IMG/VR virus record: IMGVR_UViG_3300043436_000007
Coordinates: 1 to 23,287 of that record
From: a virus
DNA length: 23,287 bases
Strand: one strand, 5' to 3'
Both the position numbers and the translations under genes were made by a program. The first letter of the stretch is position 1; every line of letters starts with the position of its first letter. Of the stretch, positions 18,809 through 21,024 are shown piece by piece. The notes under the pieces were generated by a model. That model saw only the letters and a list, made by a program, of their open reading frames with translations, was not told the origin of the DNA and did no database searches.

Positions 18809-19651
18809 TTAAGTTTCACGGCAGGTGATCTTGACGATACCTTCATCGTCAATGGCAACAGCGCCAGCACTGAAGACCTCGTTCACCAACCAAGAAGTCT
18901 TCTCAGCGATGTAGTTGATCTCAGTTCTCATGGCAATGCCTTCACCGTAGCCAACTGCATCCTTGTGGAATGCAAAGCAGCTGCGATCAAGTGAGGCATC
19001 AATAGCCAAGCCGCCTTCAGAGCGGTCACCCAAGACATGGAACGTGAAGCCCAAGTAGGTGTTGAGCTCGCCCTGCACCAGCGCTTTAACGCTGTTGAAG
19101 TCGGAGCTGGTCACGCTAGTCTCAGACAGCAAGTTGGCCAAGCCATTTGCGTGAATGATGATGTTGCGGCCATCTGGTGGAACATTGTTCTTGTCCATTA
19201 AGCGCTTTGCTTCGCGCAGCTTGGTAATGTTCATATTGGTGTCAGAGCCACCAATGTCATTGCTGACGGTCAAGCTGGTGCTAGATGCGGTAAGTGCATC
19301 CAGAATCATCTGATCTTGGCGACGGCCCATAGCGCCAGCAACAACTTGTACGAGCTCTTGACGCTCATCAAAATTGACCTTGGCTTGGCTGAAAATGTCA
19401 GAGTACTCTGCTGCGTTGTAATCAGCCAAAGTCAAAGTGACTGAGCTAAATGCAACATTCAGAGGTGTGACATCGGTTTGGGGGACGCGAATAGTCGCAA
19501 CACCCTTACCGACTTTAGGAAACTTAACAGTTGAACCTTCGACTCCACGACGCTGGCGAACCGCCGGAACCAACTTTGCCATACCTTGGTAGGCTTGTTT
19601 GACTTCCGCGTCGAAGAGAGTAACGAAGGCATTGCTTAAAGAAATGCTCAT
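18809..19651 (-). CDS. Major capsid protein
   Basis: The 280-residue product follows the scaffold and is the only candidate of the right size and place for the major head subunit, expected to adopt the HK97 fold. Supporting features are the N-terminal helix, the V-R-Q-R-R-G-V-E-G-S-T-V-K-F-P block (residues 31-45), a helical spine region (E-L-V-Q-V-V-A-G-A-M-G-R-R-Q-D-Q), the H-A-N-G-L-A-N-L-L segment near 168-176 and the beta-rich end. GAGG sits 8 bases before the ATG. It has its own sigma70-like promoter and a structured leader of about 140 bases, suiting high-level late expression. Confidence 0.85.
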   Translation of the reverse strand: MSISLSNAFVTLFDAEVKQAYQGMAKLVPAVRQRRGVEGSTVKFPKVGKGVATIRVPQTDVTPLNVAFSSVTLTLADYNAAEYSDIFSQAKVNFDERQELVQVVAGAMGRRQDQMILDALTASSTSLTVSNDIGGSDTNMNITKLREAKRLMDKNNVPPDGRNIIIHANGLANLLSETSVTSSDFNSVKALVQGELNTYLGFTFHVLGDRSEGGLAIDASLDRSCFAFHKDAVGYGEGIAMRTEINYIAEKTSWLVNEVFSAGAVAIDDEGIVKITCRET

Positions 19652-19722
19652 TGGGATACCTCATTCGGTTAATTAAAAACAGGGTTCTCGCGCCGGTAAG
19701 CCAGTAATCTGGGCCAATGCTT

Positions 19723-19737
19723 GCTAGTTACGCTAGC
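19723..19737 (-). promoter_or_regulatory. Hairpin in the capsid mRNA leader
   Basis: GCTAG-TTACG-CTAGC (plus-strand reading) is a perfect 5-bp inverted repeat in the untranslated leader. An additional ATCTGG/CCAGAT pairing (near 19773 and 19706) would enclose it. It may stabilise the capsid transcript. Confidence 0.4.
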
Positions 19738-19791
19738 CAGTCGTCTGCATCTCGCAGTGGTCAGGGTCTGTTGCCAGATAAGCCTTGCGCC

Positions 19792-19822
19792 ATTATATAT
19801 ATTTCTTTTTACTTGTTGTCAA
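19792..19822 (-). promoter_or_regulatory. Sigma70-like promoter for the capsid gene
   Basis: The minus strand carries a perfect TTGACA (19817-19822) followed by an AT-rich spacer and TATATA (19794-19799, 17-base spacing) or TATAAT (19792-19797, 19-base spacing). It points at the capsid gene, whose start is about 140 bases downstream. Recognition by host RNA polymerase is inferred. Confidence 0.65.
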
Positions 19823-19838
19823 CATTTATTTTGGGCAT

Positions 19839-19905
19839 GACTTCCCCAAGGGTGAGAAGTACTCCCCCAAGCCCATGTGCGCAAGCACACTAGCTTCCCC
19901 ATAAG
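19839..19905. repeat. Three short C-rich repeats upstream of the capsid promoter
   Basis: Plus-strand copies: GACTTCCCCAAG (19839-19850), TACTCCCCCAAG (19860-19871) and TAGCTTCCCCATAAG (from 19891). They lie just upstream of the minus-strand -35 box, between about 17 and 85 bases away, a position suitable for an activator or repressor. Confidence 0.4.
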
Positions 19906-19919
19906 GATGCGATTCATTC

Positions 19920-19952
19920 GATAGAGGTCTTGTCTCACCTTGTCCCTCTATC
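19920..19952. repeat. Perfect 8-bp inverted repeat in the capsid upstream region
   Basis: GATAGAGG (19920-19927) and CCTCTATC (19945-19952) flank a 17-base loop that itself contains two direct copies of GACAAG on the minus strand. No T-tract follows on either strand. Role unknown. Confidence 0.5.
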
Positions 19953-19980
19953 TTGCCCGATACCTCGCACACAGTTCGGT

Positions 19981-20010
19981 AGGGTTACCAGCGGGGTGAT
20001 GCGCTGCCCT
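19981..20010. repeat. Bulged inverted repeat in the capsid upstream region
   Basis: AGGG, then CAGCG, an 8-base loop, CGCTG and CCCT, with TTAC bulged on one side. It is one of a cluster of hairpins in the 19652-20247 non-coding region. Role unknown. Confidence 0.4.
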
Positions 20011-20079
20011 ATGTTCTATCCCAAGCCATCCATGTAAATGCACTGCTTTCGCGTGGGGTGCGGCTGGCGTAGGGACAAT

Positions 20080-20186
20080 AAAAAAGCCGCTTACTGCTGC
20101 CCCCGGTAGGAACCCTAAAGTAAAAACCAAGGGCGAGAGCATGAGTAAACGGCTTTAAAACCTGTCGCTTCCTACGGCAACGGTTT
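20080..20186 (-). ncRNA. Candidate structured small RNA with loop-loop pairing
   Basis: Read on the minus strand, the element begins with hairpin 1: AAACC-GTTGC / GCGAC-A-GGTTT, ten pairs with one bulged A (20177-20186 with 20158-20168) and the 8-base loop CGTAGGAA. Hairpin 2 is AAAGCCGTTTAC / GTAAGCGGCTTT, twelve uninterrupted pairs (20145-20156 with 20083-20094), extended inside by TGCT/AGCA and CCCT/AGGG. It ends in a T-run (six T, then ATT), which makes it an intrinsic terminator. GTAGGAA in loop 1 is perfectly complementary to TTCCTAC (20106-20112) inside hairpin 2, giving a possible kissing or pseudoknot contact. Both non-Watson-Crick pairs are G-U only on the minus strand (A-C on the other), which fixes the strand. 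I do not recognise a known family. Confidence 0.6.
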
Positions 20187-20188
20187 GG

Positions 20189-20215
20189 ATTATACACAAA
20201 AAAAGCCCCTAACAA
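20189..20215 (-). promoter_or_regulatory. Possible promoter for the structured RNA
   Basis: A perfect TATAAT (minus strand, 20189-20194) lies directly before the first stem of the candidate RNA. The best -35 match, TTGTTA (20210-20215), is only 15 bases away and lies in the loop of the upstream terminator, so the promoter is weak or the match fortuitous. Confidence 0.35.
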
Positions 20216-20224
20216 GTAGGGGCT
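20198..20224 (-). terminator. Intrinsic terminator after the scaffold gene
   Basis: On the minus strand AGCCCCT-ACTTGTT-AGGGGCT, a perfect 7-bp GC-rich stem (20204-20224), is followed immediately by a T-run (20198-20203). It should end or reduce transcription coming from the portal-scaffold genes. Confidence 0.85.
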
Positions 20225-20230
20225 AAAGGC

Positions 20231-20249
20231 AACTGCTCCTGTAGCAGTT
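20231..20249 (-). other. Hairpin overlapping the scaffold stop codon
   Basis: AACTGCT-CCTGT-AGCAGTT, a perfect 7-bp stem overlapping the scaffold TAA. It sits just before the intrinsic terminator and may protect the 3' end of the scaffold mRNA or slow terminating ribosomes. Confidence 0.5.
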
Positions 20250-21024
20250 ATTTGATTGTAGCGTGGAACATCTTTTCTACCTTCTGTCTGTAGGCAGTGT
20301 CTGTTTTATATCTAGGATCGTTAACCATTTGATAGAGCTCGTCCTTGCTTGGAGCACCTTCCAAAGGTGCGCTCTGTGTTGGCACCCTGCCCTCGTAGGC
20401 CTCTCTGACTTTCATCAAAGCTGTGATGCCCCTGGCTGTGCCACCCATGATCTTAAACTCTTCAAAGTCATCCTTTGACCACACGCCCTTGTTGACCAGG
20501 CCGCGTGCCCAGTCCACCATGCCGTTGACTATGGCGCCACCGTTGGGTCCTAGCTGCTTCATCTCTGCAGCTGGGTCAATCATGTCGCCTTGCATGAGCT
20601 CTTTGGCTTGTGTCTGCAGGTTGCCGACCAGGTCGTCAAAGGCAGTCTGGGATAGTCCATTGTCTTTTGCCCAGCTGGAGAGAGTGGTCGCCATGGGGTT
20701 GGTTTCGGCTTCCTCTCCAAATACTTTTAGATCGTATTTGCCGTCAGCTGGTGCCTTGTGTTTGCCTTGGCTAATTTGCTTGCGCAGATCTGTCCAGCTC
20801 TTGGCTATGCCTTCTAAGTCTGGCTCGTTTTCGTCCTTCCGCCAGAAGTTCTCTGGCCAGTAGTCGGGTCTCTCTAGAGGATCCTCTGGCGCTGGAGCGC
20901 TTGGGTCTGCAGCCTTGTGGTCGATCTCGACCGACTGCGGGTTAATTGTCTTGGCTTCGTCACTTGCTTGCACGTTGTCAAGTAGGCCGGATGTACCGGG
21001 CTCGACTGTTGCTGTGTCTGTCAT
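20248..21024 (-). CDS. Scaffolding (capsid assembly) protein
   Basis: A 258-residue acidic protein located between portal and capsid, the standard place for a podovirus scaffold. It has a disordered N-terminus, then the block 'RPDYWPENFWRKDENEPDL' (about residues 52-70), a pattern I know from T7-like scaffold proteins, and a 'GKYDLKVF' segment. Helical regions follow, ending in a basic C-terminal helix (Y-R-Q-K-V-E-K-M-F) suited to binding the inner capsid surface. No protease motif is seen. The start shares ATGA with the upstream gene. A hairpin and a terminator follow its stop. Confidence 0.85.
   Translation of the reverse strand: MTDTATVEPGTSGLLDNVQASDEAKTINPQSVEIDHKAADPSAPAPEDPLERPDYWPENFWRKDENEPDLEGIAKSWTDLRKQISQGKHKAPADGKYDLKVFGEEAETNPMATTLSSWAKDNGLSQTAFDDLVGNLQTQAKELMQGDMIDPAAEMKQLGPNGGAIVNGMVDWARGLVNKGVWSKDDFEEFKIMGGTARGITALMKVREAYEGRVPTQSAPLEGAPSKDELYQMVNDPRYKTDTAYRQKVEKMFHATIK

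Follow-up and report, generated by a model that had tools for sequence, protein, structure and literature searches.

Does the interval between the scaffold and capsid genes of this phage encode a stand-alone RNA, and if so, what might such an RNA do? The window analysed here is the whole of a 23,287-base virus record (IMGVR_UViG_3300043436_000007), in which podovirus structural genes are read from the minus strand. The capsid protein is 76.8% identical to that of Methylophilales phage MEP301. The initial annotation proposed, from the sequence alone, that a small RNA with two stems and a 7-base loop contact lies on the minus strand between the scaffold gene (20248-21024) and the capsid gene (18809-19651). 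Both stems, the terminal U-run, the TATAAT and the exact 7-nt complement are indeed present. The features of the region, including a second structured RNA that the initial annotation missed, are as follows.

20204-20224, minus strand: intrinsic terminator hairpin of the scaffold operon (T-run 20197-20203), whose loop carries the -35 of RNA1
20210-20215, minus strand: -35-like element TTGTTA, 15 nt before the -10
20189-20194, minus strand: -10 box TATAAT of RNA1
20080-20187, minus strand: RNA1, the structured small RNA of about 105 nt
20164-20181, minus strand: P1 core hairpin (5 bp, 8-nt loop)
20169-20175, minus strand: first strand of the loop contact, GUAGGAA
20144-20155, minus strand: 5' arm of P2 (AAGCCGUUUACU)
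20106-20112, minus strand: second strand of the loop contact, UUCCUAC, in the interior of P2
20080-20095, minus strand: 3' arm of P2 (20084-20095) and U-run (20080-20085), the intrinsic terminator of RNA1
19836-20063, minus strand: RNA2 (type I), the second structured RNA of the cassette
19792-19822, minus strand: promoter of the capsid gene (TTGACA 19817-19822, TATAAT 19792-19797), outside the cassette

The minus strand of the RNA1 region folds at -46.4 kcal/mol, against a mean of -31.5 for shuffled sequences (z -3.97), and none of 200 shuffles is as good. A single 7-nt match is modest evidence on its own, since shuffled interiors reach 7 nt in 2.5% of cases. Comparison with relatives, fetched through the capsid protein and through short DNA patterns, is what decides the matter. 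The 52 distinct RNA1 sequences at this site fall into type I (32, including the window), type II (19) and one divergent form (L176; labels of this kind denote individual sequences and loci in the comparison). Every one of the 52 keeps at least 7 exactly complementary bases between the P1 loop and the P2 interior, although the contact takes 27 different sequence forms. When the loop of one type-I sequence is paired with the interior of another that has a different loop, only 0.7% of 570 combinations reach 7 nt; in the less diverse type II the figure is 7.2% of 278.

In an ungapped block alignment of 24 type-I sequences, 98.4% of cells are paired, and the covariation score of the whole structure is 0.462 against 0.180 for shuffled alignments, a score that none of 500 shuffles reaches. 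The contact helix is 100% paired, with changes on both sides in 5 of its 7 pairs and no G-U in 168 cells. The contact strand was placed in this alignment by its complementarity, and the swap tests, which do not depend on the alignment, therefore carry more weight. The core of P1 is paired in 97.5% of cells, and P2 in 97.9%, with double changes in 4 of its 12 pairs. The G-U pairs that occur in P1 and P2 fit an RNA read from the minus strand. The larger stem counts of the initial annotation include lineage-specific extensions; the core P1 stem has 5 bp and an 8-nt loop, of which 7 nt pair. A covariance model of RNA1 scores the window at 95.1 bits (E 7.5e-19), although the window belongs to the training set of that model. 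A second set of 34 distinct RNA1 sequences, from other genomic sites, was found through the 5' motif of RNA2 and a model of the nested stems only. Of these, 30 keep at least 7 nt of complementarity, in 17 forms. Among the exceptions, L279 has a P1 broken by recombination, and L249 and L258 are very divergent.

The flanking signals are those of a separate transcription unit, although transcription itself is inferred. The terminator of the scaffold operon lies immediately upstream of RNA1. In 19 of 52 relatives the loop of that terminator carries a perfect TTGACA, 15-17 nt before a -10 box (for example gcccctgcTTGACAggggctttttttcggcTATACT in L124, L132 and L213), and TATAAT or TATACT precedes RNA1 in 43 of 52. 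The window's own -35 is weak, with TTGTTA and a 15-nt spacer before TATAAT, and was not reported by a simple promoter scan. Because MEP301 was reported to encode no RNA polymerase (PMC8024684), a host-type promoter is expected. P2 followed by the U-run is a textbook intrinsic terminator.

RNA1 does not occur alone. Scaffold-capsid gaps in this group come in two sizes, and of 137 distinct gaps, 87 lack the element and 50 carry it. Gaps without it are mostly about 245 nt long, and gaps with it are 586-978 nt long. The added DNA holds RNA1 and, directly after it, RNA2, of about 230-270 nt. Over 32 homologues, type-I RNA2 has 45 consensus pairs, with 98% of cells paired and double Watson-Crick changes in 26 pairs; probable pseudoknots are also seen (for example GGUGGG/CCACCC becoming GGUGAG/CUCACC in the window lineage). 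The two RNAs are all-or-none over these gaps. The single apparent RNA2-only case, L176, carries a divergent RNA1 that the covariance model finds at 34.1 bits (E 5.9e-5). The parts can nevertheless recombine, since L151 combines RNA1 of type I with RNA2 of type II.

The same pair is found in unrelated phages. A BLAST search with one cassette hit MW202484.1, Podoviridae sp. ctfne034 from Manatee Spring, where RNA1 (78.3 bits, E 5.7e-17) and then RNA2 lie between a helix-turn-helix gene and rusA, in a region with cro. A hypothetical protein annotated across the two RNAs in that record (33533-33892; L239:2953-3312) is probably a mis-annotation. A pattern from the 5' end of RNA2 then found 67 viral contigs. 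In about 45 of the new ones, neither the capsid nor the scaffold gene of this group lies in the fetched stretch, and RNA1 directly precedes RNA2 in 51 of the 52 loci tested by the model. In L264 an extra segment lies between them, and L261 lies below threshold but shows a 12-nt contact by eye. The downstream genes vary and include a YbcO-type nuclease, Mom, PAPS reductase and unknowns. No convincing copy was found in bacterial or archaeal genomes: an internal RNA2 motif gave no match, and three matches to the 5' motif were judged from their contexts to be due to chance. The element recurs in more than a hundred environmental phage contigs in several genomic contexts, so it is probably useful to phages.

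Neither the window nor cassettes from any context match an Rfam 15 family at the gathering score; only weak hits were obtained, mostly to the upstream terminator hairpin. ARAGORN found no tRNA or tmRNA in the window or in ten cassette loci, and literature searches found no description of this RNA. Like phi29-type prohead RNA (pRNA), RNA1 is a small phage RNA with covarying loop contacts and of about the same size (PMC5340915, PMC6765105). However, it lacks the three-way-junction pRNA fold, has its own strong terminator hairpin, is present in only some close relatives, and occurs in phages unrelated to phi29; no pRNA model matched, as far as Rfam holds pRNA families. GOLLD and ROOL are also structured, accessory phage RNAs of unknown function, with pseudoknots and kissing contacts and sometimes next to tRNA-like sequence (PMC12286853), but they are 600-800 nt long, whereas RNA1 and RNA2 are two shorter, separate RNAs in fixed order, and no match to GOLLD or ROOL was obtained. 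The pistol ribozyme probably also pairs a hairpin loop with a strand inside a second stem; there the paired strand would lie on the other side of the inner hairpin, and RNA1 ends in a terminator. Phage regulatory RNAs such as c4 and DicF, and probably lambda OOP, have their own promoter and a terminator or terminator-like stem (PMC12197685), but RNA1 has no antisense seed and has a conserved pseudoknot and an obligate partner in RNA2. HEARO RNA lies beside an HNH gene, as RNA2 does in some copies, yet four HNH-bearing loci (L116, L089, L105 and L090) gave no HEARO match.

The evidence supports the central proposal of the initial annotation, a stand-alone structured phage RNA gene on the minus strand that had not been described before. 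The explanation that seems more likely than not is that host RNA polymerase starts RNA1 at the sigma70-type promoter whose -35 lies in the loop of the scaffold-operon terminator, and that the transcript ends at P2. In this explanation the P1 loop docks by 7-9 Watson-Crick pairs onto the strand just 3' of the inner hairpin of P2, giving a compact pseudoknotted fold. RNA1 and RNA2 form one accessory module that is gained and lost as a unit at a hotspot between the scaffold and capsid genes and is carried by unrelated phages elsewhere. Its function is inferred only, no protein partner or target being known. The most likely action is in trans, with RNA1 recognised by its shape (by a host or phage protein or by another RNA) rather than by antisense pairing, as an optional host-takeover or counter-defence factor. 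A bolder and more tentative possibility is that the two RNAs act together as an RNA-only two-component module, for instance as a complex that captures a host or defence factor. No obligate pair of structured RNAs behaving in this way is known to us, and strongly supported new RNA families with a fixed RNA partner are rare.

The main competing view is that RNA1 is an attenuator, a leader whose P1/P2 contact times or stabilises termination ahead of RNA2 and a downstream cargo gene. The order promoter, RNA1, terminator, RNA2 is fixed and is often followed by a ribosome-binding site and a gene, and the terminator is conserved in nearly all copies. RNA2 has no obvious promoter and lies just after the RNA1 terminator, so readthrough must occur in some condition, which leaves room for such a role. 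On the other hand, no conserved antiterminator pairing was seen, although alternative pairings were not searched systematically, and RNA1 has no ligand-like conserved core. At the scaffold-capsid site RNA2 is usually followed by the independent capsid promoter rather than by a gene that it could control, and attenuation remains doubtful. It is equally doubtful that the contact is formed between molecules. Covariation cannot distinguish contacts in cis from those in trans. The strictly Watson-Crick type-I contact and its many mutually incompatible forms would suit multimers like those made through kissing contacts by phi29 pRNA, ROOL and GOLLD (PMC12286853). However, P1 and P2 are only about 10 nt apart, so that an intramolecular contact is easy, and RNA1 shows no complementarity to RNA2 above swapped controls.

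Action on host transcripts, one of three roles raised in the initial annotation, is unlikely to proceed by base pairing. Many phage small RNAs act as antisense (PMC12197685), and RNA1 has its own promoter and a Rho-independent-type terminator, but its invariant positions lie in helices, the contact or the terminator, leaving no conserved unpaired seed. The loop varies freely and is tied up in the contact, and RNA1 has no complement in RNA2 or the capsid leader above swapped controls. A selfish DNA element (homing endonuclease cargo), whose spread the RNAs serve, is comparably improbable. A gene for an HNH protein of about 110 aa (PF01844) follows type-II RNA2 in several relatives, and L147 has an HNH gene at the same site with only the 3' end of RNA2 left, but most copies, the window included, lack any nuclease gene and yet keep both RNA folds under selection. 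Least likely of all are the other two roles in the initial annotation, packaging and control of capsid expression, which rest on the position between scaffold and capsid genes. The element is missing from gaps of phages with about 99% identical capsid, and no strong second copy was found with the type-I model elsewhere in 38 contigs searched. The capsid gene keeps its own promoter and leader without it, and the pair occurs in phages away from capsid genes. The 5' leader of the capsid mRNA (19652-19791, minus strand) is conserved and looks structured in all relatives seen, with or without the cassette, and recognisably in MEP301.

The scaffold-capsid gap is an accessory hotspot. L139 has an unrelated, helix-turn-helix-like ORF there, and in L111 and L130 a zinc-ribbon-like ORF of about 40 aa (for example MLICPCGGKVSQAELTSGRERRSCADCGRYEIF...) takes the place of the HNH gene after RNA2. 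Between RNA1 and RNA2, L140 and L230 (also L264 and L281) carry an extra segment with a tRNA-like T-arm (UCUGGUUCGACUCCAGA) next to a 7-bp acceptor-like stem that changes between lineages yet stays paired (CAGAUUG/CAAUCUG versus CGGGUUG/CAAUCCG), as read by eye; ARAGORN calls no tRNA in L140. Further structured-looking inserts of about 100-200 nt with long closing stems, different from lineage to lineage, occupy this position in L138, L143, L171 and L235. Within type-II RNA2 (L114, L039, L090, L111, L130, L151 and L176), an 8-10 nt direct repeat, read from the alignment, changes in step in both copies (TAGGGCAT, CAGGGCAT, AAGGGCAT, AGTAGCAATT, AAGAGCAAT, TAGAGGGT, CAGAGGGT), a feature that is unexplained. 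Finally, a weak hit to the RNA1 model elsewhere in the L127 contig (L218:589-700; G020:C1:14589-14699) has a long terminator hairpin and a 10-nt complement upstream (GTGGCATAGT/ACTATGCCAC), and may be a distant relative.
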